DNA of 64,000 nucleotides from Zobellia nedashkovskayae (GTDB lineage Bacteria > Bacteroidota > Bacteroidia > Flavobacteriales > Flavobacteriaceae): assembly GCF_015330125.1 (NCBI RefSeq), contig NZ_JADDXR010000002.1:372001-436000 (forward strand), read 5' to 3'. Positions within the stretch are counted from its first letter, which is position 1; each line of letters opens with the position of its first letter. Under the pieces are notes generated by a model, which saw only the letters and a list, made by a program, of their open reading frames with translations, made no database searches and was not told where the DNA came from. Both the position numbers and the translations under genes were made by a program. Below, in pieces: positions 5,330 to 38,777 of the stretch.

Positions 5330-5670
5330 GCAATTGTAAAAATAACACTTGCTTTTGATATGGCTATTGTACGATATTTAAGGTGTTTAGGAAAATAGCC
5401 TTTGGGTTTGAGTGAAAAATGAGAATGACGCTATTGGTTACAACACTAGTTTTCGTTTAGATATTGACCACATTTTTTATAGTGGATTACGCTTTTACGT
5501 AAGACTATACCATTACAAACGGAGATATTTGTAGCATACCGTTTAACCCTCTTTATTTTCATAAAAGCAGGGAATGGGCACATACTAGAAATGAACACTA
5601 AAAAAGTTATTTATTTAACCCTATATACAGTGGTCATACGGCGTAGGCCTTGTATCCAGTAGTTGTCAAC
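5330..5670. repeat. Dispersed 340-bp repeat, copy 1 (head of cassette cluster 1)
   Basis: The stretch from gcaattgtaaaa to ccagtagttgt recurs in the same orientation at 35833-36176. Shared blocks include ggtttgagtgaaaaat, ttacaacac, ttttcgtttag, ttacgcttttacgtaag, ggagatatttgtag, ataccgtttaaccct and cttgtatccagtagttgt. Within each copy tacaacac near the middle-left and gtagttgt at the right end are complementary outer arms about 230 bp apart, so the DNA could fold. Each copy lies directly before a cassette-like unit. No gene is seen in it, and none in the 265 bases between the upstream operon start and this repeat. It could be an attI-like or oversized attC-like site, or a decayed mobile element. 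Confidence 0.7.
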
Positions 5671-6518
5671 AATATTCAAAATAGCTTTATTGCATGCATT
5701 TAACACATATCAAACTTAAACCAACAACCAAAATTGACCTCAATTTTGATACAAGTGAAATTGGAAAAGGAATAGAATCCCCAAAATCTGCAATTGAAGA
5801 GTCTAAAGAATATTTAAAGTCAAATAAGCATTCGGATTTTTATAGCAAGGACTTAATGGTAGTTGTTGACCAAAAACTAATTTACGTTTTTGACTATTTT
5901 ATTGGAAAAGAAAAAATACTCATTCCCGAAATAAATCCATCAACAGTTTTCTACTCAAATGCTGTTATGTCTCATAGAAGATTGGTTTCCTTTAAAAAAG
6001 ATTTATTTGAAAATTCTCCAACAGTAAAAAATTTTAATAAGCGAATTAATCTAAATCTTTTTGGAAATTTCTTCCAATTAGCTTCTAATTGCATTGTCAA
6101 TCTACAAGCGGCATTAGAAAGTTTTGCTAATCGCCAAATACCAGATAACCATCCATTTTTAGATGTAAATGGAAAAGAGTTCGAACCTTCAATATTTCAT
6201 AAATTAGATAAAGCATTACCTGAAATTAAAGGGAAAAAATTTAAAAGTAAATTCAGAAAATATAATTTTTTAGTACGAAGAGTAATTGAGTTACGAAACG
6301 AAATTATTCACCTAACACCTATAGAAGAAACAACTAATACCAAATATAAAACCACTTATAGAAAATTACTGTCTTTTGATTACGCCGAAGCTATAATTTC
6401 TGTAGAACAGCTAATAAACTTCTACGAACCGGGTTTGATTGAGAAATGTGATTGTGGTAAAGAGTTCTATTATGATATAGAGGAAAGATATGATTCTAAA
6501 TGAAATACTGTTGACAAC
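5662..6518 (+). mobile_element. Integron-cassette-like unit 1 (HEPN-type cargo)
   Basis: The unit begins gttgtcaacaatatt (5662-5676) and ends aatactgttgacaac (6504-6518). The two ends are reverse complements at 14 of 15 positions. In integrons the start of an inserted cassette (TTRRRY after a G) pairs with the RYYYAAC at its own end, because both come from one circular attC. The same logic with different bases is seen in the other three units. The single gene fills the unit almost completely. No integrase is nearby. Confidence 0.65.
5694..6503 (+). CDS. HEPN-motif protein of unknown role, cassette cargo
   Basis: 269 residues, no signal peptide. Residues 115-215 are helical and contain RNEIIH at 201-206. 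This matches the Rx4-6H signature of HEPN domains with a polar residue after the Arg, as in many metal-independent RNases of toxin and defence systems. A short zinc-knuckle-like CDCGKEF lies near the C-terminus. It is the only gene of cassette-like unit 1, and its coding sequence is clearly more AT-rich than the neighbouring housekeeping operons, in keeping with transfer. A HEPN fold is inferred from one motif and the helical context. It may instead be a non-catalytic HEPN relative or an Abi-type protein. Confidence 0.6.
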   Translation: MHLTHIKLKPTTKIDLNFDTSEIGKGIESPKSAIEESKEYLKSNKHSDFYSKDLMVVVDQKLIYVFDYFIGKEKILIPEINPSTVFYSNAVMSHRRLVSFKKDLFENSPTVKNFNKRINLNLFGNFFQLASNCIVNLQAALESFANRQIPDNHPFLDVNGKEFEPSIFHKLDKALPEIKGKKFKSKFRKYNFLVRRVIELRNEIIHLTPIEETTNTKYKTTYRKLLSFDYAEAIISVEQLINFYEPGLIEKCDCGKEFYYDIEERYDSK

Positions 6519-6799
6519 AATGGTAACCGTTGCACAACTCCTTTTACAAAATTAATAGATGATTTTAAGATGGTATAAAAAAAATTAAATAACTGACAAC
6601 CAAGTTGTTATAATTTTAACAAACTTAAAAAATAGGTGTTTTAAATAATTTTAATGGTTCTGCAACCGCCACAATGACTATAAGTATTTGCTTGTTCTCG
6701 CCTACTTACGAAAATCCTCGCGGATTTTCTATTCGGTTTTTATTTGCTAAATAAGGTGCTTAAAACACGCAACAAACCATATACATAAACGTTACAGCA
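6519..6799. repeat. attC-like hairpin region between cassettes 1 and 2
   Basis: The first part (6516-6537) begins aacaatggtaacc and recurs after cassette 2 at 7495. A second hairpin-like module spans about 6669-6799: the left arm acaatgactataagtatttg, a central palindrome GAAAATCC-tcgc-GGATTTTC (6710-6729), and a right arm caaaccatatacataaac ending in the next boundary gttacagc. The left arm and centre closely match the sequence after cassette 4 (38773-38840). Between the two parts, about 6540-6665 is AT-rich and without recognisable content. Imperfect long hairpins with unpaired bases are typical of attC sites. Confidence 0.55.
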
Positions 6800-7497
6800 C
6801 ATATGACCAAAAAACAAACATTTGTTATAATTACAATATTTCTGCTGTTCATTAGCTGTGAAAAAAAGCAGACTGCTTTGGAATTTGAAAAGTCTGTTGC
6901 GAATGAAATTTTTCCAGCTTTACTTGACTCTTTATTCCACGATACAAGATTAGCGCCATCACCACCACCACCACCAAATTCTGAATGGAGTGATTCAACG
7001 GCAGTTAAATGGGACGAATCCAAAATGATAGCCGAATACGAAAAACGGAAAGCTGAATTAGAAAAAGACACAACCAAATTGGTAATTGCGATTGTGGACA
7101 GCACTTACCAAATAAATGAAAGAGCGAAAAAAGAGCTTATTGAATTTTATAGGGATTTCGCAATTGAATTGGACACAGCAAATATTGACCAATCGTATAA
7201 AATCAATTTATCGGAATTAAAACACGATGATAAGTTTAAACTTAAATATCGTTCGGAATTTCCAGCGACAAGCAAAGTTTGGAAAGGTGATTATGATTTC
7301 CGTCTTTCTGGAATAACTGGATTTTCACGTATTCAATTTGACCGAACAAAAAATTATGGAGTTATGATAAGCGGTTTTGGTTGCGGTAGACTTTGTGGTT
7401 TTAGTGGACTAGTGTTCATTAGAAAATTGAATGGGAAATGGATAATTGATAAAATTAAAGTAACCGCTATATCGTAAAAAAAAATACATGCTGTAAC
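6791..7497 (+). mobile_element. Integron-cassette-like unit 2 (lipoprotein cargo)
   Basis: The unit starts gttacagca (6791-6799) and ends tgctgtaac (7489-7497), a perfect 9-bp inverted pair that differs from the pairs of the other units. The gene starts 12 bases after the left boundary and stops 20 bases before the right one, the tight packing expected of cassettes. Confidence 0.6.
6803..7477 (+). CDS. Hypothetical lipoprotein, cassette cargo
   Basis: 224 residues. A lipoprotein signal peptide is clear: basic start, hydrophobic core, then LFISC with the lipidated Cys at 19. A proline run (about residues 52-59) and a charged helical stretch (70-95) follow. The last 100 residues look like mixed beta strands, including GFSRIQFDRTKNYGVM and a C-terminal VFIRKLNGKWIIDKIKV strand typical of small NTF2-like or DUF-type lipoproteins. 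No catalytic motif is seen. It is the sole gene of cassette-like unit 2 and is AT-rich. Its function is unknown. Confidence 0.65.
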   Translation: MTKKQTFVIITIFLLFISCEKKQTALEFEKSVANEIFPALLDSLFHDTRLAPSPPPPPNSEWSDSTAVKWDESKMIAEYEKRKAELEKDTTKLVIAIVDSTYQINERAKKELIEFYRDFAIELDTANIDQSYKINLSELKHDDKFKLKYRSEFPATSKVWKGDYDFRLSGITGFSRIQFDRTKNYGVMISGFGCGRLCGFSGLVFIRKLNGKWIIDKIKVTAIS

Positions 7498-7520
7498 AAT
7501 GGTAACCTTTGCACAAGCCG
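7489..7520 (+). repeat. Truncated attC-like left arm after cassette 2
   Basis: Directly after the boundary tgctgtaac comes aatggtaacctttgcacaa, matching 17 or so of 19 bases found after cassette 1 (aatggtaaccgttgcacaa). The matching right arm and a further cassette are absent, so the array seems to end here. The rest of the stretch to 7718 shows no gene. Confidence 0.5.
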
Positions 7521-7718
7521 TTGATTCTACACGGAACGGATTTCCTAGAGTTCCACAAAAAAATAAAAACTCACCATCCACACAAAATAACGGTCTACCT
7601 ATACAAAACCGCCTAGCGCGTGACCTTCTTCTTTTTATATTGCCACCACTATTCCCTCTATCGTACATCATCATGTAACGTATTGCGAACTTTTGTCGCA
7701 ATCTAACTACTCCAAAAA

Positions 7719-8081
7719 ATGAATGTTCAACTACGTAGGGTCTATATCTCCAGCGCAATTGCACTAATTGCCGCACTCTTATTACAATCTTGTTACACCA
7801 CCCGTTTGGTAAGCACACACGGCGTGCCCATGCCTCCTGAAACTATGGAAGGCCAAGACTGGTACCGCGATAAAATGTACGGAGAATATACGGCCGTAGT
7901 AAAAACTTCCGTGCTTACAGATGGTATGATGATCAAAGTTCCCAAAGACAAATGTGAATCCGGAAAACTGTTTTCGGTTGAATTCACGGACACTTTTGGA
8001 GGCAACCTTTTGTACTTAGTAACTTTTGGAAGCCGTAGAAAAGTGAAGATAAAATATGTATGTATGCTACCTGATCTTTAA
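7719..8081 (+). CDS. Small lipoprotein of unknown function
   Basis: 120 residues with a lipoprotein signal peptide (LLQSC, Cys at 25) followed by YTTRLVSTHG, which resembles short Bacteroidota lipoproteins and loosely recalls Bor-like surface lipoproteins. The C-terminus has two predicted beta strands (LLYLVTFGSRRKVKIKYVCM). It lies 4 bp before the FAD oxidase gene and is probably co-transcribed with it. Nothing in the sequence identifies a partner or activity. Confidence 0.65.
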   Translation: MNVQLRRVYISSAIALIAALLLQSCYTTRLVSTHGVPMPPETMEGQDWYRDKMYGEYTAVVKTSVLTDGMMIKVPKDKCESGKLFSVEFTDTFGGNLLYLVTFGSRRKVKIKYVCMLPDL

Positions 8082-8085
8082 TATT

Positions 8086-9723
8086 ATGGCCAAGACAAGT
8101 GAATTATTAGTTGGAAAATGGGATACGCTGCACGAGAACGGGGCTTTTGACCTGAAGCGTCAATATATTACCCGTCACGAGCATAAAGCCACTATGCCCA
8201 GCAGGGTGTTGCGCTATAACGACGCTGCGGAAGAAATTCAGCGCTTGATTAAAAAATGTGAATCGGAAAACGAGGGTTTCCGCGCATTCGGTTCGCGTTG
8301 GTCCATGTCCAAAATTGCGCATCAGAAAGATAATATGCATCAAAACAATTTGATGTATCTAGACCTTGAAATAGAGGAAGGCGATATGCACCCCGATTCT
8401 GAATACGCGCATGAAAATATCTTCTTTTTTGAATGCGGAAGTACCATTAAACAGATTTCACAAAAACTAAATGAATACGGTAAATCCTTAAAAACCACAG
8501 GTGCCAGTAATGGGCAGACCATTGCGGGTTGTATTTCCACCGGTGTACATGGGTCCGCTTTTGATACGGGTGCGGTACAGGATTATATCGTAGGCCTGAA
8601 CATCATTACGGGACCAAATGCTGAAGATAATGTGTATCTGGAACGGCATTCCCAACCCAGTTTAAACGATGCTTTTGCGCAAAGTATAAACGCTAGGGTC
8701 ATTAGGAATGACGACCTTTTCAATGCCGCTTTGGTGGGTTTGGGCAGTTTTGGGTTTATTCACGGCGTTGCCCTAGAAGCAGACGACCTTTTCCTGTTGG
8801 ATAGATACGTGAGAAGAATTGATAAAAACCTGGCCCTTTCCTTATCCAAAACTTTAGATTTTAAGAATTCCGAGTTTAAAATTGATAATGAAGTAGATGA
8901 AAACGGAAAACCTAACCGACCGTACCATTATAAAATTTTCATTAACCCGTATGTGGACGAAGACCAATATGTGGTGGAGGCCATGTACAAGAAAAAGTAC
9001 ACCCTAGCCTACCCGGACCCGTTTACTAAAATTGAAAAATCGCTTTATAAAGACCTTATTTATTTGCTGATCAAATTCAGTGAGAAATTCCCGAAAAGTA
9101 TTCCGTGGTTTATAAAGAGTTTGCAAAAAAGTATTCTGCCAGAAATTACCAAAGACGAAGAAAAAATTAGGGCTACGCTCTATGAAACCTTTTGGGATGC
9201 CGGTTACAAAGGCCCTGCTTTTGCCTGTTCTATGGGCGTTGCCATTGAAGATTCCGAAAGGGCATTGAACGCGCTGGTAAAAATGACCAAAGACCATCCT
9301 ATTCCCGGAATTTTTGCGATGCGCTACGTCAACAAAACGGAAGCCACTTTGGGCTTTACCAAATTCCATAAAACCTGCGTTATTGAGATTGACGGCATCC
9401 AATGGAATAAATCCGATAAAATTCCCAGTTTGGAGGAATATGGTCGGTTTATGATCGAGGCGATGCAAGCTGAAAATATTCCGTTTACCGTGCATTGGGG
9501 CAAAAGCATGGACTATGCATTTCCCGATCTAGCCCACCACATGTACGGCAACAACGTAGACCAATGGATGAAATGTAGAAGTTGGCTGCTTTCCGAGAAA
9601 ATGGCGAATGTATTTTCCAACGAATTTATTACCACATTAGGATTGGAAACGTATCAAAATGTGCCCAACGATTTTATTGAATCTTTGGATAAAAGCGGAC
9701 AGCCCGCACATTTAATTACATAG
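8086..9723 (+). CDS. FAD-binding (VAO-family) oxidase, sugar-lactone oxidase-like
   Basis: 545 residues from the ATG at 8086; an in-frame ATG at 8056 would overlap the lipoprotein gene by 26 bases and is less likely. Residues 40-240 form a PCMH-type FAD-binding domain, with RAFGSRWSMS (66-75) and the pyrophosphate-binding stretch TGASNGQTIAGCISTGVHG (138-156). The C-terminal half resembles the substrate domain of gulonolactone, arabinonolactone and alditol oxidases. At the place where covalent flavoproteins of this family have GSGHS, this one has GSRWS, so the usual FAD-linking histidine is missing. There is no signal peptide. Substrate unknown. Confidence 0.75.
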   Translation: MAKTSELLVGKWDTLHENGAFDLKRQYITRHEHKATMPSRVLRYNDAAEEIQRLIKKCESENEGFRAFGSRWSMSKIAHQKDNMHQNNLMYLDLEIEEGDMHPDSEYAHENIFFFECGSTIKQISQKLNEYGKSLKTTGASNGQTIAGCISTGVHGSAFDTGAVQDYIVGLNIITGPNAEDNVYLERHSQPSLNDAFAQSINARVIRNDDLFNAALVGLGSFGFIHGVALEADDLFLLDRYVRRIDKNLALSLSKTLDFKNSEFKIDNEVDENGKPNRPYHYKIFINPYVDEDQYVVEAMYKKKYTLAYPDPFTKIEKSLYKDLIYLLIKFSEKFPKSIPWFIKSLQKSILPEITKDEEKIRATLYETFWDAGYKGPAFACSMGVAIEDSERALNALVKMTKDHPIPGIFAMRYVNKTEATLGFTKFHKTCVIEIDGIQWNKSDKIPSLEEYGRFMIEAMQAENIPFTVHWGKSMDYAFPDLAHHMYGNNVDQWMKCRSWLLSEKMANVFSNEFITTLGLETYQNVPNDFIESLDKSGQPAHLIT

Positions 9724-9761
9724 CTATAATTCGTAAACCATACTTTTAGTTCACACCGATC

Positions 9762-9809
9762 AAGCCTCATCATTTGGTTCCTATCCTTTTGATGAGGCTT
9801 CTTTTTTTT
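9762..9809 (+). terminator. Rho-independent terminator after the oxidase gene
   Basis: An 11-bp perfect stem (aagcctcatca with tgatgaggctt), a 17-nt loop and a run of eight T. It is 39 bases past the stop codon. Confidence 0.85.
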
Positions 9810-9908
9810 CTTTCCTTTTCAGTTTTAAACCTTGGTAAATGCGGTGATAATTCGTTGATAAAAATCAGGTATAAAATCTTGTGCTATCTTAAATAAAAAT
9901 TCACTTAA

Positions 9909-9936
9909 TGTCAATTTAACATATTGACAGTCAATA
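9909..9936. promoter_or_regulatory. Overlapping palindromes, candidate operator before the protease genes
   Basis: tgtcaat (9909-9915) pairs with attgaca (9923-9929), and the overlapping tattgac-a-gtcaata (9922-9936) is a perfect palindrome. A possible -7 box tatttttg (TAnnTTTG form) lies at 10025-10032. The stretch 9810-10132 holds no gene, and these are the only structured elements I see there. Confidence 0.35.
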
Positions 9937-10132
9937 ATTTGAGATTATAATAAAAAATACTGCAGATTATAAAGAATTTCCATCAAACTATACATAACTG
10001 GTTTTTTTTTGCCTCTTAGTACGGTATTTTTGTCGTGAAGTTAAAACCCATATTCCTCCACAAACTAAACTTGAATCCAGTTTCAATATAACCATTGAAA
10101 ACTTTATTCAATACTTAAAAAACATAGTTGAA

Positions 10133-10375
10133 ATGGAATTGGTTATTCAAACCGGAAGAGAAAACAACGACCTATGGAAAATCCCACAGGTAAAAACTTT
10201 ACTCCAGCCGTACCATCCTGTTATTTCCGCAGATGTACTTTGTCTGGAGGACAAATGCTTTCATTACCTAACGCTAAATGACCATGCCCCTGTACAGAAA
10301 CTTATAGGTCTACTCATGGAAATAAAAGGCATTAAAGCTGCCTATCAAAAACCACTTGACTTCCCCCCAATGTAA
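10133..10375 (+). CDS. Stand-alone protease-propeptide-like small protein
   Basis: 80 residues, no signal peptide. The second half (HYLTLNDHAPVQKLIGLL, then GIKAAYQKPLDFPP) aligns by eye with the segment of the following S8 protease before its catalytic domain (FYKLAAPEGEDLESIAASL, then VDGAYVKPGCLPP). Shared features are the F/H-Y-x-L strand, a helix, and the closing AYxKP...PP motif. Subtilase propeptides of the I9 type act as folding helpers and inhibitors, and free-standing I9 proteins inhibit subtilases. This gene lies 119 bp before the protease gene, so a role as inhibitor, immunity protein or chaperone for it is a reasonable inference. Confidence 0.6.
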   Translation: MELVIQTGRENNDLWKIPQVKTLLQPYHPVISADVLCLEDKCFHYLTLNDHAPVQKLIGLLMEIKGIKAAYQKPLDFPPM

Positions 10376-10494
10376 CAGTTTCTATTTGTAAAAGAAAGCT
10401 GTTCAAAAGTTCAAAAATACCCCCGCTCTTATTGGAAACTCAGTATTAACCTTGGTCGATACTAATAAAAAAGTCGACCTATAAATTCAATTTT

Positions 10495-12246
10495 ATGGCA
10501 ACAAAAAAAAGTAAAGTAGTCATTGATTCGCCATCGGGTTCACCACCAGAACTCATTGTCGTCTCAAAAAGCGTTGAGGCACCTCATGCCGAGGAAGCCG
10601 AAAGTGCAGCAAAATCGAAGTCCAAACCATCGGCAAATACCTTAGCAGGTTTTGTGGTGGGTAAAAAGCTGCAGCTTGTTCCGTTATTCGCGGACACAGA
10701 TGCAGAAGTGGCAGAACTGGTTTCAAAGGCAAGCCAAGAAGAAGGTGCCGAAGACCTTTCAAAAATGCGGCAATTTTATAAACTAGCAGCACCGGAAGGA
10801 GAAGACCTGGAAAGTATTGCTGCCTCATTGAACGAACTAGACGAAGTGGATGGTGCGTATGTTAAACCCGGCTGTCTACCTCCCGTTTATTTTGGTGATG
10901 ACGGTATGGAAGCAGCACCTAGTGATGATGCACCACCCATTACCCAAAACCTAACAAACAACCAAGGGTATCTAAATGCTGCACCACAAGGGGTAGACGC
11001 GCGTTACGCTTGGACGCTACCTGGTGGACGTGGTAACGGTGTCCGTATTATTGATATTGAGGGTGGTTGGAATTTTAACCATGAGGACTTACGGGTAAAC
11101 GTAGGTGGCTTACTTGGAGGAAACAACAACACAAGCGACCTACGTTGGCACAATCACGGTACGGCAGTATTTGGTGAAATGACGGGAGACCGAAACAGTT
11201 TTGGGGTAACCGGAATATGCCCGAGCGCCAATGTCAGGGCGTACTCTATTTTTGGTGTGGGGAGTGCCAATGCTATCAGAAGAGCAGCTGATAATCTCCG
11301 CGCCGGTGACCTTATGTTAATTGAATTGCATAGAGGAGGGCCTAACTATCCCGGTGGAAATACGCAAATGGGCTTCATTGCCATTGAATGGTGGCCAGAT
11401 GACCTTGCGGCCTTGCAATATGCCACCAATAAAGGTATCATAGTCATAGAAGCGGCTGGAAACGGGTCTCAAAACCTTGATGCCGCAATCTATAATACAA
11501 GACCTAATGGGTTCCCATCCAGTTGGCGAAATCCGTTTCGTAGAACTGCAGGTCATGATAGCGGCTGTGTTATTGTGGGTGCAGGTGCGCCGCCTCCTGG
11601 CACTAATGGAGGAAATTGGGGCGCTGACCGTAGCCGCTTAGGCTTTAGTAATTATGGTTCTTGTGTTGATACCCAAGGTTGGGGCCGAGGTGTTACTACA
11701 GCTGGTTATGGAAATGTTACGGGCAACAACCCAAATAATAAGAATGAATGGTACACAAATTCCTTTAGTGGTACCAGTAGTGCTTCACCTATCGTTACGG
11801 GTGCTGTAGCCTGTTTGCAAGGTATTCAAAAAGCAGCAGGAAGGGCTATGCTTACGCCTCGTAGAGCTCGCCAATTGTTGAGAAGCACGGGTTCCGCACA
11901 ACAGGCAGGAGCTAATCCGGTATCACAACGCATTGGTAGACGTCCAGACCTAAGGGCATTGGTTAGAGCTACCGCTTCCCGTAGACCTTGGTGTGGAGTT
12001 CAGTTCAATGGTAGTGTACCACGTAATGCTACCCGCAGATGGTTTACCCATAGCTGGCCTGATCATTACCATGTCATCTGGACGGTAGTTCCAACAGCAC
12101 CGGCCATTGACGGTTCTGCTCAGATAGAATTTGAAGTGAAAACTACAAGACAGGCTTTGGGGCTGATCAAGTATTACATAGAGATCAAAAATCTTAAGAA
12201 TTATACGGTAAACGTACAAGCACGTTACTGTGTAGTTGCATCATAA
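10495..12246 (+). CDS. Subtilisin-like (S8) serine protease with C-terminal accessory domain
   Basis: 583 residues. An Ala/Ser/Lys-rich start without signal peptide is followed by a propeptide-like domain (about 50-130). The S8 catalytic domain (about 165-490) has Asp187 in VRIIDIEGG, His221 in WHNHGTAVFGE, oxyanion Asn323 in AAGNGS and Ser428 in FSGTSSASP, so it should be active. Residues 499-583 form a separate small beta-rich domain (CGVQFNGSVPRN, WFTHSWP, IKYYIEIKNL) that is duplicated as the next gene. The absence of a secretion signal suggests cytoplasmic action or export by a non-Sec route. It heads a group of peptidase genes. Confidence 0.85.
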   Translation: MATKKSKVVIDSPSGSPPELIVVSKSVEAPHAEEAESAAKSKSKPSANTLAGFVVGKKLQLVPLFADTDAEVAELVSKASQEEGAEDLSKMRQFYKLAAPEGEDLESIAASLNELDEVDGAYVKPGCLPPVYFGDDGMEAAPSDDAPPITQNLTNNQGYLNAAPQGVDARYAWTLPGGRGNGVRIIDIEGGWNFNHEDLRVNVGGLLGGNNNTSDLRWHNHGTAVFGEMTGDRNSFGVTGICPSANVRAYSIFGVGSANAIRRAADNLRAGDLMLIELHRGGPNYPGGNTQMGFIAIEWWPDDLAALQYATNKGIIVIEAAGNGSQNLDAAIYNTRPNGFPSSWRNPFRRTAGHDSGCVIVGAGAPPPGTNGGNWGADRSRLGFSNYGSCVDTQGWGRGVTTAGYGNVTGNNPNNKNEWYTNSFSGTSSASPIVTGAVACLQGIQKAAGRAMLTPRRARQLLRSTGSAQQAGANPVSQRIGRRPDLRALVRATASRRPWCGVQFNGSVPRNATRRWFTHSWPDHYHVIWTVVPTAPAIDGSAQIEFEVKTTRQALGLIKYYIEIKNLKNYTVNVQARYCVVAS

Positions 12247-12265
12247 AAACAAATAATATTAATCC

Positions 12266-12291
12266 GGAAAGGTCAAAAATTTAGCCTTTCC
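12266..12291 (+). other. Intergenic hairpin
   Basis: ggaaagg pairs with cctttcc across a 12-nt loop, between the protease and its small companion gene. No T-run follows, so it is more likely an mRNA processing or stability element than a terminator. Confidence 0.4.
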
Positions 12292-12306
12292 CTAAAATCT
12301 AAAATT

Positions 12307-12567: not shown

Positions 12568-12599
12568 AAATATTTGGTAACACTAAAAATATATGAATT

Positions 12600-12911: not shown

Positions 12912-12931
12912 TTTCCAATTTAGAATTCTTG

Positions 12932-12967
12932 ACCCGTATGGTGAAAACTGTACGGGTTTTTGTTTTT
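12932..12967 (+). terminator. Rho-independent terminator of the S8 protease group
   Basis: acccgta pairs with tacgggt (12932-12938 with 12951-12957) across a 12-nt loop and is followed by a T-rich run. Confidence 0.75.
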
Positions 12968-13169
12968 CACAAAAGCTGAATGTATTGAAAAAGCTCTGAT
13001 AACCAAACAAGTAAAACCTCAAAAACACCATTTATACAAAATCAGCTACAATCCACACAACGCCGAACTAGCTAGGCATCAAAATCACTAATTTAAGATT
13101 TTACTTACTGAACGGTAAGCACATATTTACAGTAAAAGGTTCCCTAAAAAATAGAAACTGACTATACAC

Positions 13170-13221: not shown

Positions 13222-13264
13222 TCCATTGTGAACACCTCATTTTCTAATTCTTATTGCAGAACCT

Positions 13265-30474: not shown

Positions 30475-31881
30475 CTACAGGTTTTTGGGATTCACCCCAA
30501 TAGAATTAAACAACTTCGCTTTTGCGGAGAAAAACTTGTTCTGTACGGCGTTCCTTTTCAGCTCGGCATCTATGAGTTTACTTTCCCTAGAATTCACCAA
30601 AAACAAAGAACTTTCCCCAAAACCGAACTTCCGTTCTTCTGCCGCTACCATGGTATTATAATTAAATACCACGTCATCTATTAAGACATTTTGTTTTTCA
30701 AAGGATTCCAGTTCTCGGTACAGGCCTACTATTTTGTTCTTAATTCGTATTTCTGCATCATCCATTTCAAACTCGGCGTTCTGTAGTTTCAGCTTTGCCA
30801 GTTTTAAATCGCCTCGTTCTTTTCTAAGAAAAAGGGGCACGCTAAAAGCTACGCCACCTTTATAGTTTTCGGTAGTAAAACTGGAAATATACTCCGGTTT
30901 CTGTGTCAGGAAATTATACTGTAATTCAATTTTTGGCAAAAGCTTGTTGGCTTTCAATCGCTTTTCAACGGTGAGCCCATCAACCTTATACCCCAATGAT
31001 TTCAACTTCGGGTGGTTCTCTATGGAAAAACTATCTAAAGGCATACCCATAATTTCTAAAGTGGTATCAATATCACCTGCTAAATTGGTCTCCGGCGTTA
31101 CATTGGCCTGTAGCTCCACGGGCATATTATCTCCCATCCAAAGAAAATTGGAAAGCTCCAAAGCACTTTTCATAAAGCGGACTTTTGCCTGCTCCAAATT
31201 CAGCTCGCGATCTTGCATGGCTATTTTAGCCTCTACCGTATCAATTGCAGCAACCTGGCCAACTTGGGCACTCTTTTTCACCCCTTCAAAACGGATTTCG
31301 GCATTGGTCAAAAAATCAGCATATACTTGGGTATCTTGGTAAGCATGCAACCAATCAAAATACGCCAAAGAAGCCTCAAAAAGCACCTCGTTCACCTGCA
31401 AATCCCGCTCTACCAATGAACGCTCTTTAAAAATCTTGGCTTGCTTTAAAGTAGCCATACGTTGGTTTATCCAAAGCCCTTGCCCTACGGACATAGAAAT
31501 ACCGGCACTATACAATCCGTCATCAGGTACGGTCTGATCAGGATTCAGGTACACACCTTCGTTTTGCTCAAAATTTCCCTTTAGCTCAACGCCGTACCAA
31601 GTGGGTATTTTAAAAGTAGCGTTCAGACGGTCATAATACTCCGTACCCTTAAATTCCTTACGGTCATAATCTACCTCTATCTTAGGATCAAAACCACCAC
31701 GCGAACTCATGAGTTGCGCCTGCCCCATGCCTATATTTAGTTGGGCCTGTTTGGCTATGGGGTGGTACTTTTTTACGTACCCTAGATATTCGTTAAAACC
31801 TAAAACCACCTCTCCGGGCTGTTGGGCTTGCGCACCAAAACAGCATACAACAAGGAGATAAAATAGTAATTTCTTCATCAT
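30475..31881 (-). CDS. TolC-family outer-membrane efflux channel protein
   Basis: 468 residues with a signal peptide ending GAQAQQ. The mature protein shows two long helical coiled-coil repeats separated by beta-strand segments, with GVELKGNFEQNEG and GVAFSVPLFLRKERGD strands, as expected of TolC/OEP channels. It overlaps the HlyD-type adaptor gene by 4 bp and is the last gene of the TetR-headed operon, completing a three-component exporter. Confidence 0.85.
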   Translation of the reverse strand: MMKKLLFYLLVVCCFGAQAQQPGEVVLGFNEYLGYVKKYHPIAKQAQLNIGMGQAQLMSSRGGFDPKIEVDYDRKEFKGTEYYDRLNATFKIPTWYGVELKGNFEQNEGVYLNPDQTVPDDGLYSAGISMSVGQGLWINQRMATLKQAKIFKERSLVERDLQVNEVLFEASLAYFDWLHAYQDTQVYADFLTNAEIRFEGVKKSAQVGQVAAIDTVEAKIAMQDRELNLEQAKVRFMKSALELSNFLWMGDNMPVELQANVTPETNLAGDIDTTLEIMGMPLDSFSIENHPKLKSLGYKVDGLTVEKRLKANKLLPKIELQYNFLTQKPEYISSFTTENYKGGVAFSVPLFLRKERGDLKLAKLKLQNAEFEMDDAEIRIKNKIVGLYRELESFEKQNVLIDDVVFNYNTMVAAEERKFGFGESSLFLVNSRESKLIDAELKRNAVQNKFFSAKAKLFNSIGVNPKNL

Positions 31882-33233
31882 TTTTCCTTTTTAGCAGTCG
31901 TTTCTTTAGGCTGGTAATAGTTAGGTGGGAATCCGTTTATTTGCCGCCATAGCTCAAACCAAATCGGTACATCGTCTAAAAGGGATATGGTATTGGCACC
32001 GGAACCAACGCGAATATCCTCTGGCCAGGGTTCTGCTTCCGGGTCATCGTCCGGAGCGACCAATACACGGTATTTTCCGCTGACATCTATAAAGGTTTCC
32101 ACCGCTACGATTTTTCCTGCAAACGTTCCGTAGGAAGCATTGGGCCAACCGCTAAAAACAATAGCGGGCCAACCATCAAACTGTATCCGTACTTTTTCGC
32201 CTACGTGTACCAATGGCAAGTCTATAGGAGCCACAAAAGTTTCTACGGCCTTTTCAAACTCAGAAGGCATAATACCTACCAAACGATCTCCCTCTTTAAA
32301 GTTCTGACCTATGCCACCTTGCACCGCTTTATTGATAAAACCGCTCTGGGGCGCCTTTATATAGTACATACCGGTACGCACCTCATAATTGGCGTATTGG
32401 TTCTCTAATTTGCTTACCTGCGCTTCCGAATCAAACTGATTGGATTGTGCGGTGTACATATCGCTCTGCGCCTTGGAAATCTTATCCGTGTATGCTACGG
32501 CCACGCGGTTAATTTCCATGGTGGCATTGAGCACATCGTTTTTAGCGGCCAACAGTTTATTTTCCTGAGAAATAAGTTTGGCCTGTGTTTCCTGTAGCTT
32601 CAATCTTTTTGCCTCCACATCCGTCATGGCCTTTAGGCCTTCTTGCTGCAATTGCGCTATACGATCGTATTGCCGCTGGGCAATCTCAAGATTGGTACGT
32701 GCGGCCTGCAGGTCTATACTATCGCTCTTTACCTTCAGTTTGGATTGCAGCAGTTTGTTTCTGGATTGCTCCAATTTTAGACCACGCTCATTGCCCAATG
32801 CGGAAATCTGATTGTTTAATGCACCTACCTTTCCTTGGTACGATTCAACAGACATATTTTTTGCCGCTATCTGCTGCCCTGTCCGTTCCACCAAACGTGG
32901 GTCAAAATACTCGTTCTTTACTTCGGAAATATGTAAAATGGTATCTCCTTTTTTCACAAAATCACCTTCTTGTACGTACCATTTTTCAATACGTCCCGGA
33001 ATGGGCGATTGTATGCTCTGCGGCCTGTGCTCCGGACTTAGCGTAGTTAGACTTCCCGTACCACGCACACTCTGCGTCCACGGTAGGAATAAAAGAATAA
33101 AGCCAAAAAGCGCGGACCCCAACAAGAACCGGTTAAAGTGCTTGTAGTGCCTTTGGTGAAAAACCTTATTTGTAGATTTGTATCCCGTTAGGTGCACCGT
33201 TTTATTTATCGGATTGTTAGATATATTCAGCAT
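31878..33233 (-). CDS. HlyD-family periplasmic adaptor (membrane fusion protein)
   Basis: 451 residues with one membrane segment (about 33-52). A split lipoyl domain follows (SPIPGRIEKWYVQEGDFV at about 77-95, partner near 290-310 with IKAPQSGFINK) around a long coiled-coil hairpin (about 125-275). A beta-barrel domain comes last. Such adaptors connect an inner-membrane ABC exporter to TolC. The 6-bp gap to the ABC gene and the 4-bp overlap with tolC show a single operon. The long hairpin is like those of type I secretion adaptors. Confidence 0.87.
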   Translation of the reverse strand: MLNISNNPINKTVHLTGYKSTNKVFHQRHYKHFNRFLLGSALFGFILLFLPWTQSVRGTGSLTTLSPEHRPQSIQSPIPGRIEKWYVQEGDFVKKGDTILHISEVKNEYFDPRLVERTGQQIAAKNMSVESYQGKVGALNNQISALGNERGLKLEQSRNKLLQSKLKVKSDSIDLQAARTNLEIAQRQYDRIAQLQQEGLKAMTDVEAKRLKLQETQAKLISQENKLLAAKNDVLNATMEINRVAVAYTDKISKAQSDMYTAQSNQFDSEAQVSKLENQYANYEVRTGMYYIKAPQSGFINKAVQGGIGQNFKEGDRLVGIMPSEFEKAVETFVAPIDLPLVHVGEKVRIQFDGWPAIVFSGWPNASYGTFAGKIVAVETFIDVSGKYRVLVAPDDDPEAEPWPEDIRVGSGANTISLLDDVPIWFELWRQINGFPPNYYQPKETTAKKEK

Positions 33234-33239
33234 AGCTTC

Positions 33240-34904
33240 TTAAGTTATGGAAACAAGTTGCCCCTGGTTCAACGTAATTATTTTTTGGCATGCCTTTACC
33301 CATCTTAGGTCTTGGCTTACGACTACTAGCGCCCACGGGTTTGACTTATTGGTCAAAAACTTCATGATGCGCTCCGCTTCCACCTCATCAAACTGGTCCA
33401 AGGGATCATCTAATAACAGTAGTTTTGGCATGTGCACGATACTTCGCGCCAAGACTATTTTTCGTGCAATGGTATAGGGTATATACTGCCCTTCCGGATA
33501 AATCATAGAATTGAGGCCGTTGGGCTGTTCCTTTATGAACTGTAGCAACCCAATATTCTCCAGAACCCAATGCAGGTCTACATGCGGGACGCGTTTATCC
33601 CCTAAAGTAATGTTCTCCAAAATAGTACCTTCAAACGGACTTTCCTCTGGAATGCACTGCCCTAAGAACGACCTGTAATGGTTGGGTTTTATTCCCTTCA
33701 GCGAAAAATCGTTCGCATAAATATTACCTTCGGTAGGTTCAAAAATACCCGCGATCAATCGTAACAAGGTAGATTTACCGGAACCGTTCTCCCCTATGAC
33801 CAGTTGTCTGCTTCCCGGTTCTATTTTAAAAGAAATATCATGTAGAATGTTTTTCTTCGTAGCCGTACCAAAAGAAATTTTATCCAGCTCTACCGTTAAC
33901 TCGTCATCATCTTTTAATGGCTGCTCACCTCCTTGGTTCTCCAGTTTAAGGTCTACGACCTGTCCTATTTTTTCAAGGGAGGTCAACAGGTCATAAAAGG
34001 TTTCAAAACCACGTATCAATTTTTCAACGGAAGTAATCACCAAAAGAATAATAATCTCTGCAGCTACAAACTGCCCAATGTTCATTTCTTGGTTCAGTAC
34101 CAATAAGCCCCCAATGGCAAACAACCCGGCCGTTACCAAAACCTTAAACCCGATCATCTGAATAAATTGCATCAGCAATACCCTAAAATGACTTTCGCGA
34201 GATTTCAGGTATTCGGAAACCAGGTTATCGTTTTTATCTACGGCAAGACTGGTACGTCCGGATAGTTTAAAACTCACCTGCGAACGTGCCACTTCCTGAA
34301 TCCAGTGCGCTACTTTGTACTTTAATTTGGATTCCTCCAAACTGGTATCCATACCTTTCTGCACCGTAAAACGGAACACCAGGTAGACTAATAACAGCAG
34401 CAGAATACCATAAATGATAAAAAACGGATGGTAGAACGAAAGCAGCAACAAGCCAAAAATAATCTGTAAAATAGCTGCCGGTACATCTAGCAAAAGTTTG
34501 GAAAGTCCCTTTTGAACCGTAATGGTATCAAAAAACCGGTTGGCCAGCTCTGGCGGATAGTAGTTGCGCAGCTCGCTCATTTTAATTTTTGGAAACCGAT
34601 AGGTAAACTCAAAAGAGGCGCGTGTAAATATTTTCTGCTGCATGTTCTCCACAATACGGATCTGCATGATTTGCAAAATACCCCCAAAAGCAACACCACC
34701 GGTCACTAAGACCACAAGAAGTATCCATGAAGAGCTGATTTCCGCACCTTGTATAAGATTGATAATAGTCTGAATACCCAACGGAAGCGAAAGATTCACC
34801 AAACCCGCAAAAATGGCATAATAAAAAGTTTGCAGTACATCTCGTTTATCCAGTTTTAGCAAGCCCATAAGGCGCTGCCAAGAGGTCAGTATTTTTTTAG
34901 CCAT
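33240..34904 (-). CDS. ABC exporter (fused membrane and nucleotide-binding domains) with degenerate ATPase motifs
   Basis: 554 residues: a six-helix membrane domain (about 20-310) and a nucleotide-binding domain. Walker A GENGSGKST and the Q-loop GQCIPEESP are intact. In place of LSGGQ is a sequence reading GQYIPYTIARKI, the usual catalytic Glu after Walker B is Asp (LLLLDDP), and the switch His is Gln (VVVSQD). It therefore looks like the weak half of an asymmetric ATPase, yet no second ABC gene is in the operon. It may form heterodimers with a protein encoded elsewhere, or hydrolyse slowly. The upstream TetR gene overlaps it by 8 bp. Confidence 0.85.
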   Translation of the reverse strand: MAKKILTSWQRLMGLLKLDKRDVLQTFYYAIFAGLVNLSLPLGIQTIINLIQGAEISSSWILLVVLVTGGVAFGGILQIMQIRIVENMQQKIFTRASFEFTYRFPKIKMSELRNYYPPELANRFFDTITVQKGLSKLLLDVPAAILQIIFGLLLLSFYHPFFIIYGILLLLLVYLVFRFTVQKGMDTSLEESKLKYKVAHWIQEVARSQVSFKLSGRTSLAVDKNDNLVSEYLKSRESHFRVLLMQFIQMIGFKVLVTAGLFAIGGLLVLNQEMNIGQFVAAEIIILLVITSVEKLIRGFETFYDLLTSLEKIGQVVDLKLENQGGEQPLKDDDELTVELDKISFGTATKKNILHDISFKIEPGSRQLVIGENGSGKSTLLRLIAGIFEPTEGNIYANDFSLKGIKPNHYRSFLGQCIPEESPFEGTILENITLGDKRVPHVDLHWVLENIGLLQFIKEQPNGLNSMIYPEGQYIPYTIARKIVLARSIVHMPKLLLLDDPLDQFDEVEAERIMKFLTNKSNPWALVVVSQDLRWVKACQKIITLNQGQLVSIT

Positions 34905-35583
34905 TCGGGTTTTTATTTAAAGAATTAAATACCAGTTGTGTAAAGTAGTCGGTTGGGTCGCCATTTTCATGGCAATCGGTCAAGGACTCAAAATGGTCCT
35001 TTAAAAAATGTTGGTGCAAGGAGCCTTCCAGCACCGTGCTGGCCAAACTGTTGGGGTACGTATAATTGCCGTCTACGTTTTTGATCATCTCGCTCAAACG
35101 GGTTACCAGTCTTTTATAGATTACAAAATAGCCCTCTTTGTTCTCTGTATCTACCTCTTTGGTAAGGTAGGATTTAGAATATTCGTTAATAACGATCTTG
35201 CTTAAAAGCACCTCGTTAATATGCGAGAAGTCCGAATCATATTTTGTTGCACTGGTAACCAGCGCCAACGCTTTTTTTAGCTTTTCCTCTGGGTCTTGTA
35301 TGTTGTGGGTGGCGAATACCAATTTGTACTCTACCCAACCCCAGTACCAAGACGTTAAGTACAACAGTAATTTGTGCTTGTTCTCAAAATAGCGGTATAC
35401 AGAACTTTCATTACTCTTTATCTTAGCTCCTAATTTTTTAAAATTGAAACTTTCAAAACCCATAGCATTGATCATGAGAATACTTTCCTCTACAATACGC
35501 CTACCCAAAGTAGTAGACTCGGGGTCTTTGATATATATTTTTTCGTTGATGCCGATTTTAACCGACTGTAATAATTTATCCAT
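34897..35583 (-). CDS. TetR-family transcriptional regulator of the exporter operon
   Basis: 228 residues. The N-terminal helix-turn-helix (about 28-70) reads IVEESILMINAMGFESF, then KLGAKIKSNESSVYRYF, a typical TetR DNA-binding domain, followed by a helical ligand domain. It is the first gene of the operon, overlapping the ABC gene by 8 bp, so it probably represses itself and the exporter. A perfect palindrome 70 bp upstream is its likely site. Confidence 0.85.
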   Translation of the reverse strand: MDKLLQSVKIGINEKIYIKDPESTTLGRRIVEESILMINAMGFESFNFKKLGAKIKSNESSVYRYFENKHKLLLYLTSWYWGWVEYKLVFATHNIQDPEEKLKKALALVTSATKYDSDFSHINEVLLSKIVINEYSKSYLTKEVDTENKEGYFVIYKRLVTRLSEMIKNVDGNYTYPNSLASTVLEGSLHQHFLKDHFESLTDCHENGDPTDYFTQLVFNSLNKNPNG

Positions 35584-35652
35584 AGTGCTGAGCTTATTAA
35601 GTTGAGATACTACTTCATTATGCTTTGTTGAGCAAACACACTCGCAAATATA

Positions 35653-35665
35653 ATAGTAATACTAT
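35653..35665. promoter_or_regulatory. Candidate TetR operator
   Basis: atagta-a-tactat is a perfect 13-base palindrome 70 bp before the TetR start codon, with a related half site attactatta near 35702. Autoregulation by the adjacent TetR protein is the simple reading. Confidence 0.45.
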
Positions 35666-35832
35666 CATAACTTAATAGTTTAACTTTTATTTTTAACTCA
35701 ATTACTATTATTTATGGTTGTATCACTGTTATTTAAGGGGATGATAAAAAAGAGGTTGTTTTTTTATGAATTCATCAACAGCGTCATACGTCCATAAATT
35801 CGTACGTTTTGTCGAATAACTGTCAGAAAGAA

Positions 35833-36176
35833 GCAATTGTAAAAGGGACACTTACCGTATTTCAACTTAATTCTTGATATTTAAAGTTCTGTCGGAAAAG
35901 GATGTTGGGGTTTGAGTGAAAAATAAAAAGGATACTATGCGTTACAACACAAGTTTTCGTTTAGCTTTTGACCCTATTTTTTTTGAGATTACGCTTTTAC
36001 GTAAGGCTGTACAATTCAAAACGGAGATATTTGTAGTATACCGTTTAACCCTCCCTATTTTTATAGAATTAGGAATGGGTAAATAGTACCAAGAACAACT
36101 ATGAGCACTAAAATAGTAATTTGTTTAATACTAAACATGATGGTTATACGGCATATGCCTTGTATCCAGTAGTTGT
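35833..36176. repeat. Dispersed 340-bp repeat, copy 2 (head of cassette cluster 2)
   Basis: Same orientation as copy 1 at 5330-5670, with long identical blocks such as gtttgagtgaaaaat, ttacgcttttacgtaag or -agg, cggagatatttgtag, ataccgtttaaccct and ccttgtatccagtagttgt. The two copies differ at many positions, so the duplication is old or came by separate acquisition. Copy 2 ends exactly where cassette-like unit 3 starts. No gene is seen between 35584 and 36211 apart from this repeat and the TetR operator. Confidence 0.7.
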
Positions 36177-37335
36177 GGGTAATGTAAGAACCATCGAGAA
36201 AACAAATAATAATGAATGTAGAAAGTTTACTTAATAAAATAAAAATCTTCGCTGAATTAGTAATAGAATCAGGTTTTAAAAGGGACGTTACCGATTATAG
36301 ACAATCTATTGGGCAAGCACAAAATCAGAATTTAGTTTTTATGAAAGGACTTTCCGAAAACATAAAATCTAATCTTATCTATTTTGAAAATAATTCATTA
36401 AATGGAGAGCTGAAAAGTGTTTTAAGAGAGAACGAACCATTTACGTCACTCAATACTTTAACAGAATTGGAGGAATTAGATTCAGATAAAGAAATTGATG
36501 GACCACAATATTTTCAAAAATTTAATTCAATACTTAATCGACTACAAAAAGCAATTCAAACTAACGAATCTGAATTAAATACGGTTAAAACTACTTTTGA
36601 CAAATACGTTTCAGAAGATGATGAATATGATAGTGACGAAGAACAAGCTGTGATGTCATTAATTTTTAAAGACTTAAAATCGACAGGTAGTTTAAAAGAA
36701 TTTTCAAAAGTTTTACATCGTTGGAATAGAACTCTTCTGATTTACCATACTTTACTAAAACAAGAATCGCCAAAAGAAATTTCACTTGTAGAAATCCAAA
36801 ATGGCTCAATAGATGTAATTTTCAATATTGACTTTGACGTTGCAATAGATTTGACCGAACTAATTAAAACAGGATTAAAGGTTTATGGTGCATATTTAAT
36901 GTATAAATCAAAAACTGCAAAAGAAATTATTGCTTCATATATGGGTAATAAAAAACTTATTGCAACCGAAAAGGGCAGAGAAAAACTAATGCTTGATAAT
37001 ATTAAAGAATCTATAAAACAATTAGCATTAGAACAGCACAAAGAAAATTTGAAATCCGATTCACCACCATTAAAAGCTGGAGCGACTAAAAAAGCCGATG
37101 AAATTGCGAAAGTTATTACTGACCATATTGTTAAAGGGAATGAAGTAAAACTATTAACACCACCAGAACCAGAAGAAGAAGATGAACCAGATATTTCAAC
37201 AGAATTGAGAACTGAAACATCAATAGTCAGAGAAAGATGGAAAAAACTTGAACAAAAAGAGCAACAATTATTACTTGATAAATATACGATTAAGGACGAG
37301 GACGAAAATGATAGCGAATAAACACTACCCACAAC
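36172..37335 (+). mobile_element. Integron-cassette-like unit 3 (unknown cargo)
   Basis: The left end gttgtgggtaatg (36172-36184) and right end cactacccacaac (37323-37335) are reverse complements at 12 of 13 positions and differ in sequence from the other units. One gene fills the unit. Confidence 0.65.
36212..37321 (+). CDS. Hypothetical protein, cassette cargo
   Basis: 369 residues, no signal peptide. Mostly helical and acidic. A short conserved-looking segment (SLVEIQNGSIDVIFNIDFDVAIDL is read around 192-215; only its core NGSIDV and FDVAID stand out) precedes a hydrophobic patch (LIKTGLKVYGAYLMYKSKT) that might associate with membrane. The C-terminus is a charged tail with a PPEPEEEDEP stretch. 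It is the sole gene of unit 3, next to the Shedu unit, and is AT-rich like the other cargo. No family is recognised, but similar placement beside defence genes suggests a defence or stress role. Confidence 0.6.
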   Translation: MNVESLLNKIKIFAELVIESGFKRDVTDYRQSIGQAQNQNLVFMKGLSENIKSNLIYFENNSLNGELKSVLRENEPFTSLNTLTELEELDSDKEIDGPQYFQKFNSILNRLQKAIQTNESELNTVKTTFDKYVSEDDEYDSDEEQAVMSLIFKDLKSTGSLKEFSKVLHRWNRTLLIYHTLLKQESPKEISLVEIQNGSIDVIFNIDFDVAIDLTELIKTGLKVYGAYLMYKSKTAKEIIASYMGNKKLIATEKGREKLMLDNIKESIKQLALEQHKENLKSDSPPLKAGATKKADEIAKVITDHIVKGNEVKLLTPPEPEEEDEPDISTELRTETSIVRERWKKLEQKEQQLLLDKYTIKDEDENDSE

Positions 37336-37458
37336 ACCGTATAAAAATGATTGCGGTTTAGTGCTTAATCAAAGGTCGTTGCGTGTTTGTAAAGTCTGAT
37401 TTTCCTGCGGAAAATCCTCGCATACAAACCCGCAACTATTCTTATACATCAACGTTGT
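37331..37458. repeat. attC-like imperfect hairpin between cassettes 3 and 4
   Basis: Outer arms acaac (37331-37335) and gttgt (37454-37458); next tataaaaatgattgcg opposite cgcaactattcttata with some unpaired bases; then gtttgta (37385-37391) with tacaaac (37423-37429); and the centre GATTTTCC-tgc-GGAAAATC (37398-37416). The length (128 bp), imperfect pairing and boundary complementarity are like integron attC sites of the longer type. It could also serve as a transcription terminator. Confidence 0.65.
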
Positions 37459-38777
37459 GCGTCATTTGACAAAAAAATAACTAAAGAACTATGCCAGAAG
37501 AATTTAAAGGTGAAAAAATAGAAAGAGATTTAACCACAAAACAAGTTTGGTTCTACCACGACACAGAAGCTGGCATAAAACAAATTTCCAAAGAAGTATT
37601 CAAAAAAGTTGACAAACTTATTCATTACCCAAGAGGCTTTGAAGGTGGAGAAAAATATAAGTTTATTAAAAAATTTACCTATTTAGGATTTGGCGGTAAA
37701 CTGCCTGTTGGAGTTGTCAAAGCTACTTCATATGGTTATGGTTTTACTAAAACTTTAAATCCATTTTCATATTTTATTGATGAAACCTATGAAATTAAAG
37801 AAGTAATAATTGAAAAAAAAGGAAAAACAGAGTTAGACGTTGATAATAAATTACTTTATTTAAATGAAACTAGCTTACAAGAGTTACAAGATTCATTTAG
37901 TGCTATTTATAAAAAAAATCGTGCTGAAATAGATTTTGTATTACAATTAACTTTAAATAGTATTTTCCCAAAAGTAATTGACAAACCTGAAAAGACATAT
38001 ATTGAAAATGCTCTTGCTTCTTCCTTGGCAAGTTGGGGAAATTCTATAGATGAATTTTCAGATGGAGATAAAAAAGCTATTCAAGATTTATTTGACAAAC
38101 TATCTATAGGAACAGACTTTTTAAGCAAAGAATCTTTAGCTAAAACAAAGGAAATTGTTGATAGTAAATTTATTCAAAAGACAATTGAACGATTTAATGA
38201 ACTTTTTGCATTATCAACTGATGGAGAAAGTCTTGAAAAACATTGGCAAGTATTTCTACAAGAAAACAACTGGGTTTTTTCTTCAATATTCGCACAACCA
38301 ATTATTCTATATCAAAGAGAAGCTTATGTTGGAGGAAAAAGTCTTGACAATACAAATGGAAAAATGAATGATTTTCTAATTAAAAATAGTCTAAGTGATA
38401 ATGTTTCTTTCTTGGAAATAAAGACTCATAAAACTAAACTTGTTGAGAATAGTTCTTACAGAGGAGAAGATGTTTATAGTGTTTCAAAAGACCTTTCTGG
38501 TTCGACTGCTCAAGTTCTAAATCAAAGAGATAATTTTCAAAAGGAATTTTATGCATTAAAGGCAAAAAGCAGGAAAAACGGAAATTTTGAAACCTTTAAT
38601 TCTAAATGCATTGTACTAATTGGAAACTTGGCGGATTTGGACGAAGACCAAAGATATTCTTTTGAACTTTCTAGAAGCAATAGTAAAGATGTTGAAATTA
38701 TAACCTTTGATGAATTAAAAGCAAAAATTGAGAGCTTTCAAGAATTATTAAATGAAGAATAAAAACGAACGCACAAC
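37454..38777 (+). mobile_element. Integron-cassette-like unit 4 (Shedu-type cargo)
   Basis: The left end gttgtgcgt (37454-37462) and right end acgcacaac (38769-38777) are a perfect 9-bp inverted pair. The left end is at the same time the right limit of the attC-like hairpin that follows unit 3, as expected in a head-to-tail cassette array. Confidence 0.68.
37491..38762 (+). CDS. Shedu-type defence nuclease (SduA/DUF4263 C-terminal domain)
   Basis: 423 residues, no signal peptide. The C-terminal 180 residues match the Shedu SduA (DUF4263) PD-(D/E)xK nuclease: a leading helix with LEKHWQVFLQENNWVFS, then Asp294 in GKMNDFLI, Glu309 and Lys311 in FLEIKTHKT, and the family's downstream GSTAQVLNQRDNF helix. 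The N-terminal half (about 1-200) is a strand-rich domain of the type that varies among Shedu proteins and is thought to sense phage. Shedu is a single-gene anti-phage system acting by DNA cleavage. It fills cassette-like unit 4. Confidence 0.8.
   Translation: MPEEFKGEKIERDLTTKQVWFYHDTEAGIKQISKEVFKKVDKLIHYPRGFEGGEKYKFIKKFTYLGFGGKLPVGVVKATSYGYGFTKTLNPFSYFIDETYEIKEVIIEKKGKTELDVDNKLLYLNETSLQELQDSFSAIYKKNRAEIDFVLQLTLNSIFPKVIDKPEKTYIENALASSLASWGNSIDEFSDGDKKAIQDLFDKLSIGTDFLSKESLAKTKEIVDSKFIQKTIERFNELFALSTDGESLEKHWQVFLQENNWVFSSIFAQPIILYQREAYVGGKSLDNTNGKMNDFLIKNSLSDNVSFLEIKTHKTKLVENSSYRGEDVYSVSKDLSGSTAQVLNQRDNFQKEFYALKAKSRKNGNFETFNSKCIVLIGNLADLDEDQRYSFELSRSNSKDVEIITFDELKAKIESFQELLNEE

Follow-up and report, generated by a model that had tools for sequence, protein, structure and literature searches.

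Integron-like gene cassettes in Flavobacteriaceae and a candidate recombinase lacking the IntI patch

We analysed a 64,000-nucleotide stretch of the Zobellia nedashkovskayae genome (contig NZ_JADDXR010000002.1, positions 372,001 to 436,000, forward strand; hereafter the window), in which four single-gene units have ends that pair with each other. These units are very probably gene cassettes belonging to an integron-like system of site-specific recombination, run by a tyrosine recombinase without the patch of the integron integrase IntI and equipped with satellite platforms. Such a gene-capture system is common in Flavobacteriaceae and seems to depend on an integrase devoid of a part thought essential in known integrons. 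The cassettes, their ends and sites, the platforms, the neighbourhood of the recombinase and its co-occurrence with the sites were all established in silico.

Results

Unit-specific ends and folded sites

The four cassettes of the window, with their open reading frames (ORFs), are the following.

Cassette 1, 5662 to 6518, + strand: ORF 5694-6503, 269 aa, no Pfam match; own ends pair over 10 bp, then A·C, then 4 bp.
Cassette 2, 6791 to 7497, + strand: ORF 6803-7477, 224 aa, lipoprotein-like judged from its start; own ends pair over 9 bp.
Cassette 3, 36172 to 37335, + strand: ORF 36212-37321, 369 aa, no Pfam match; own ends pair over 10 bp, then A·C, then 3 bp.
Cassette 4, 37454 to 38777, + strand: ORF 37491-38762, 423 aa, Shedu SduA-type protein (SduA, E 8.9e-73); own ends pair over 9 bp.

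From unit 1 to unit 4, the end pairs are GTTGTCAACA/TGTTGACAAC, GTTACAGCA/TGCTGTAAC, GTTGTGGGTA/TACCCACAAC and GTTGTGCGT/ACGCACAAC. In unit 2 the 9 bp are followed by two mismatches, the second being A·C, and by 3 bp; in unit 4 pairing is weak beyond 9 bp, and position 11 holds A-G. A preliminary description of this DNA had reported the four units, their unit-specific end pairs and a foldable site common to units 3 and 4. All of these are present, the shared site having a core of 118 nt (37336-37453). One correction is needed: the units are not free-standing, as each pair of units starts at an attI-like platform, of a type found repeatedly in the genus.

End pairs of the form GTT.../...AAC, spaced 300-2600 bp apart, were counted with 40 dinucleotide shuffles as a control. 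Plain pairs of at least 9 bp numbered 23 on the + strand of the window against a mean of 23.6 in the shuffles, and those of at least 10 bp numbered 7 against 6.3. Pairs that had A·C at position 11, then two more base pairs, occurred twice in the window (units 1 and 3), against 0.05 in shuffled sequence, and 11 times on the strand carrying the large array of the genome, again against 0.05. The preliminary description had staked the cassette reading on boundary pairs being more frequent than in shuffled DNA; this fails for plain pairs, but holds once the site cores or the A·C feature are taken into account.

The large array lies in the window's own genome (G000), where BLAST with two window sites found relatives at C2:3553000-3575400. 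It is a 24-kb tandem array running from about 3575400 down to about 3551300. Most of its units carry a single gene; the ends are unit-specific, and the site cores measure 118-121, 180-186 or 73 nt. It holds a relative of cassette 2 with the identical left end GTTACAGCACATATGAC, as well as a 93% identical counterpart of site 37336-37453, and its last cassette carries a gene that we read as glycosidase-like. An element without a gene, about 245 bp long and starting GTTGAGGGAAATGACC, stands between its cassettes in several near-identical copies (loci L050 and L051), six of which have a complete right-hand site; this element might carry a promoter.

A custom site model of the kind proposed in the preliminary description was run over 199 Flavobacteriaceae genomes, about one per genus. 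This covariance model (R1), built from seven sites of the window genome and with no more than 15 candidates scored in each genome, matched at E<=1e-4 in 172 of them. Units were delimited in nine array regions, namely that of G000 and eight from five single-contig genomes picked by their number of strong sites before the recombinase was known. Core-only profiles, from which the end boxes were excluded, recognised 239 sites in these regions and the window, giving 202 units with both ends, drawn from 10 regions in 6 genomes. Conserved AAC and GTT ends with 9-11 nt of self-pairing are listed as attC features in the passage cited from PMC2727003. By this measure 136 of the 202 units are attC-like, with own ends pairing over at least 9 consecutive bp (9-10); ends taken from different units did so in about 1% of 4,908 combinations. 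Position 11 is A·C in 180 units, which makes a T·G wobble on the bottom strand, and positions 12-14 are paired again in 77-83%. The canonical R boxes of integrons, GTTRRRY and RYYYAAC, are rare, occurring in 11 and 10 of the 202 units, respectively. Left ends are diverse, 143 well-paired units having 74 different 10-nt sequences. There is therefore no fixed terminal repeat, and a transposon with fixed terminal inverted repeats does not fit, in agreement with the contrast already drawn in the preliminary description.

The sites fold preferentially on one strand. Using DNA parameters, the bottom strand was the more stable in 133 of 134 sites (complete core, own ends attached, 11 or more of the 14 end positions paired), with a mean of -28.3 against -23.5 kcal/mol; in its circular form, site 37336-37453 gave -31.0 for the bottom and -26.6 kcal/mol for the top strand. 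Moreover, the site arms covary. In an alignment fitted to the structure, which hence favours covariation, 94.2% of cells are paired and 325 cells are changed on both sides; on four of five measures, the observed value was reached by none of 500 shuffles, and sliding the partners reduces all measures.

Cassettes also recur at different places with the same limits. We found 21 equal-length unit pairs more than 90% identical, which are not independent comparisons, ten being among five copies of one cassette (G014b). Homology ended on the left 1-2 nt ahead of GTT in 17 pairs and further left in four (8, 8, 11 and at least 200 nt), and on the right it ended, in every one of the 21, 3-7 nt away from the G of the following GTT. 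It thus breaks around CGTT, as expected for exchange between G and TT. Leaving out 19 units longer than 2.5 kb, 149 units have an ORF of 60 aa or more, which is on the array strand in 146 of them, and 34 units have no such ORF. Scanning 89 cassette proteins gave few PADLOC matches (AbiTii, PD-Lambda-2, DrmC and others), mostly with one member each, and the commonest Pfam family had three members. Altogether, own-end pairing, covarying arms, bottom-strand bias, genes on one strand and exact-ended repeats support the circular cassettes with attC-type folded sites envisaged in the preliminary description. In Tenacibaculum maritimum, repeats are reported to make up 10.35% of the genome and are left unexplained in the passage cited (PMC5561996); such sites could account for part of them.

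A tyrosine recombinase other than IntI

The search for an IntI-type integrase (TIGR02249), likewise proposed in the preliminary description, found none in the 199 family genomes at E<=1e-60, and the best score in G000 was 76 bits for a cut-off of 265. Across the phylum, 105 of 395 genomes scored above cut-off with this model; all of these lie outside the class to which the family belongs, with the exception of G233.

A tyrosine recombinase ORF of 304-394 aa heads five of the nine array regions, in the direction of the array, and in three of these the first detected cassette begins 54-129 bp past it. A profile made from the alignment of the five found relatives at E<=1e-55 in 126 of the 199 genomes. 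Recombinase and sites occur together in 122 genomes, the recombinase alone in 4, sites alone in 50 and neither in 23 (odds ratio 14, p 3.6e-8). Among the best 30 recombinase loci, 13 have a recognised site downstream within 1.5 kb. Twelve of these 13 could be scored, and in 11 the first cassette lies 30-130 bp past the recombinase stop, as expected of an attI beside its integrase; ATATAA stands shortly ahead of GTTG in nine of the 11.

This enzyme differs from IntI. The number of residues between motifs is 65 in 31 of 31 array recombinases and 107 in IntI (11 of 20 with both motifs found). The array recombinases fall outside the IntI clade, and five of them (P0001-P0005) match TIGR02249 below cut-off and split in two pieces. 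With the XerA equivalog NF040815 (cut-off 220 bits), P0003 scores 223.2 and the other four 198-215. Most of the long forms are extended at the N-terminus by about 90 residues. The N-terminal domain of the long forms weakly resembles the domains by which the UvsW and XPB helicases bind branched DNA, and it may take over the work of the IntI insert. In the array of G014, a cassette gene (L246:499-1773) encodes a tyrosine-recombinase-like protein (P0006) with an altered HxLRH motif and an extra C-terminal part.

Within the window's genus, a relative of the recombinase of genome G001 is present in six of the nine genomes searched; at E<=1e-30, it was not found in G000, G581 and G583. G000 contains two Xer-like recombinases and one FimB-like, and the array-type was not found there. 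At C2:4001925-4002413 (L055), a FimB-like tyrosine recombinase of 198 aa adjoins an ATPase ORF that is TniB-like in look. The preliminary description had likened the units to a cluster of sites without an integrase. IntI was indeed not found in G000, but most related genomes hold a recombinase of another type, which in some of them directly heads the array.

Leaders and attI-like platforms

Each pair of cassettes in the window is preceded by a leader and an attI-like core.

Leader of platform 1, 5373 to 5631, + strand: non-coding; repeated at 35876-36141, with further copies in the genus.
attI-like core of platform 1, 5632 to 5664, + strand: GGTCATACGGCGTAGGCCTTGTATCCAGTA followed by GTT; 3 differences from the platform 2 core.
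Leader of platform 2, 35876 to 36141, + strand: repeat of the platform 1 leader.
attI-like core of platform 2, 36142 to 36174, + strand: GGTTATACGGCATATGCCTTGTATCCAGTA followed by GTT.

The leaders ahead of units 1 and 3, of about 290 bp, are 78% identical over 302 columns. The leader recurs in the genus, where it is conserved up to TATCCA-TA and the following GTTG, the sequence being cassette-specific from there on; leaders of about 300 bp ending in the attI-like core are repeated at several loci per genome (L305-L319). The 34-base core, sought with up to 10 substitutions, was found at 11 further places in the related genomes' stretches with 1-9 substitutions each, two hits (L284 and L324) being left out as second readings of counted places. 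Ten of these places were scanned for sites, and five have a recognised one behind them (L306, L311, L313, L319 and one of the two in L314). The L313 core, in G001, has on one side a divergent recombinase of 272 aa, whose start codon is about 60 bp away, and on the other a cassette terminating in a recognised site; this core is the same as at both window platforms. Core and divergent recombinase follow the same order in G586 (L325). Since the leaders end in attI-like cores, we read the two loci of the window as satellite attI-like platforms with two cassettes each.

Relatives were compared at platform 1 (G580, G581, G583 and G585). The 2.3-kb island is absent from G585 and G583, where 352 and 106 bp of other sequence replace it; in G581 and G580 the leader is present with a different content, which could not be identified as cassettes.

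Decayed sites in the window

The sites that accompany the four cassettes are in various states.

attC-like site core before cassette 2, 6673 to 6790, + strand: damaged left box with CAC instead of AAC; R1 score 139.7 bits (E 3e-29); among R1's seven source sequences.
attC-like site core between cassettes 3 and 4, 37336 to 37453, + strand: 118 nt; 138.6 bits with R1; one of R1's seven source sequences.
Truncated attC-like site after cassette 4, 38778 to 38834, + strand: matches the site at 6673 with 88% identity over 59 bp, after which similarity ends.
AATGGTAACC after cassette 1, 6519 to 6528, + strand: between AAC and GTT.
AATGGTAACC after cassette 2, 7498 to 7507, + strand.

Both platform 1 cassettes terminate in AAC-AATGGTAACC-(G/T)TT. 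From the sequence, the copy at 6519-6528 probably represents the two ends of a site core that has lost its hairpin, and the copy at 7498-7507 is apparently a second such remnant; we read them in this way because site cores often start with AATGG and some finish with TAACC. Similarity in the site of cassette 4 stops after 57 nt. Given the reduced cores at platform 1, the CAC box and this truncated site, the cassettes of the window would be largely locked in place. Directly behind the truncated site, a 349-aa ORF with a NERD nuclease-related domain (38937-39986) may be the next, decayed cassette.

Discussion

We propose that a relative of IntI and XerA among the tyrosine recombinases, without the IntI-specific insert, would capture circular cassettes. 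Strand exchange would involve the folded bottom strand of a cassette site (AAC, a covarying stem, then CG and TT with the exchange point between them) and either an attI-like site located beside the recombinase's own gene or another cassette site. Cassettes, whether moved or copied, would end up head to tail and in one direction, each join falling within CGTT. In the genus, attI-like cores closing non-coding leaders of about 300 bp would let cassettes gather at satellite platforms away from the recombinase. In G000, cassettes should move only with a recombinase coming from outside, because no recombinase of this kind was found there. We infer the activity of the enzyme, its single-stranded substrate, the circular intermediate and the loss of the recombinase.

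Several observations weigh against this proposal. Action of the recombinase on the cassettes is deduced from its position and its co-occurrence with the sites. Four of the nine array regions (the second arrays of three genomes and that of G000) have no recombinase in the sequence fetched, and in two of the five headed regions the first detected cassette lies 1.1-1.8 kb past it. Among the 172 site-bearing genomes, 50 lack a recombinase at E<=1e-55, including 7 of the 57 with at least 15 sites, and the four genomes with the recombinase alone lack sites. No recognised site was found within 1.5 kb at 17 of the best 30 recombinase loci, nor after the core at five of the ten platforms scanned in relatives. 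As for the units, 28 of 202 have no pairing beyond GTT, many of which we think are explained by sites missed in between, and 7 of 202 come from the small number of genomes in which gaps or missed sites make the ends uncertain. Finally, the fifth covariation measure, that of further pair types, is at chance (272 of 500 shuffles).

Other explanations have to be considered. The units might be orphan cassettes of ordinary IntI integrons, inserted by an IntI from elsewhere, with the other recombinase adjoining them by accident. Known attC sites and these sites do have in common their AAC/GTT ends, 9-11 nt self-pairing and bottom-strand bias, and IntI is frequent in other classes of the phylum (the 105 of 395 sampled genomes). 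We nevertheless regard this origin as improbable, because sites in 172 family genomes stand against IntI in none, the canonical left box is confined to 11 of 202 units, and the recombinase not only heads five of nine regions but, in 11 of the 12 loci that could be scored, also lies within 30-130 bp of the first cassette. The cassettes might alternatively be moved by the host XerC/XerD, the folded site mimicking a dif half-site and the array-head recombinase being dispensable. Some phages use host Xer via a folded site imitating a dif half-site, and G000, with its Xer-like and FimB-like enzymes and no array-type recombinase, yet has a large array with near-identical repeated cassettes. Both the co-occurrence of the array-type recombinase with the sites and its position argue against this explanation, to which we give very little credence.

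That there are no mobile cassettes, and that chance pairs have been combined with unrelated palindromic intergenic repeats, is hardly conceivable. It is true that unconditioned pairs of 9-10 bp are equally frequent in shuffled window DNA. Chance pairs are contradicted by the excess of own-end over other-end pairing and by the 11 A·C-conditioned pairs of the array (0.05 in shuffles); besides, the diversity of left ends leaves no fixed terminal repeat, and near-identical cassettes at separate places share the same ends.

Integrons are the best known system for the capture and ordering of single genes. A patch-less relative heading arrays of folded sites makes two questions testable, whether the insert is needed and how integrons originated. 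We lean towards the view that most Flavobacteriaceae genera possess a second integron class, in which the patch-less recombinase moves cassettes via folded single-stranded sites; it would have been missed by searches that depend on IntI and canonical attC. If such a recombinase moves cassettes, the IntI insert would not be a precondition for integron recombination. As to descent, the recombinase lineage may be the sister group of IntI or its ancestral stock. If the proposal is true, it provides one route by which Flavobacteriaceae gather accessory genes, including defence genes, and accounts for families of palindromic repeats in their genomes.

The system acts like an integron, yet it fails the IntI criterion. 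In the passages cited here, the IntI-specific domain is a defining integron feature (PMC9668308), and intI searches demanded this additional domain (PMC2426708). The insert is described as 'not fully conserved' in the integron-like subgroup, yet essential (PMC8138268), and acquisition of the insert (I2 helix) is credited with the shift of a tyrosine recombinase from double-strand to single-strand sites (PMC7790495). Bacteroidota are counted among the integron-bearing phyla (passage in PMC8618304); according to a passage in PMC9024848, an earlier survey had found In0 only, and one complete integron was later found in Salinibacter ruber. Our literature searches found no published account of a system such as the one described here.

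Like the integron of S. ruber, this system belongs to the wider Bacteroidetes group; unlike it, it was not found via IntI and occurs within Flavobacteriaceae. The G000 arrays resemble clusters of attC sites lacking an integrase (CALIN) in having no integrase in the sequence fetched, but relatives hold the system with its own recombinase. Xer recombinases (archaeal XerA, XerC/XerD) resolve chromosome dimers at dif, whereas the array recombinases head cassette arrays and most long forms have the N-terminal extension. The closest comparison is with IntI integrons such as class 1 and the Vibrio superintegron, which likewise have an integrase at the head of the array, an attI-like site, single-gene cassettes in one direction, and folded AAC/GTT-ended sites with about 10 nt of unit-specific pairing, a bottom strand favoured in folding and exchange within CGTT. 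Unlike them, the present system has a recombinase that lies outside the IntI clade, has no IntI insert and often points in the array direction; it has few canonical GTTRRRY boxes, an A·C at position 11 behind which pairing resumes in most units, and attI-like cores at several loci.

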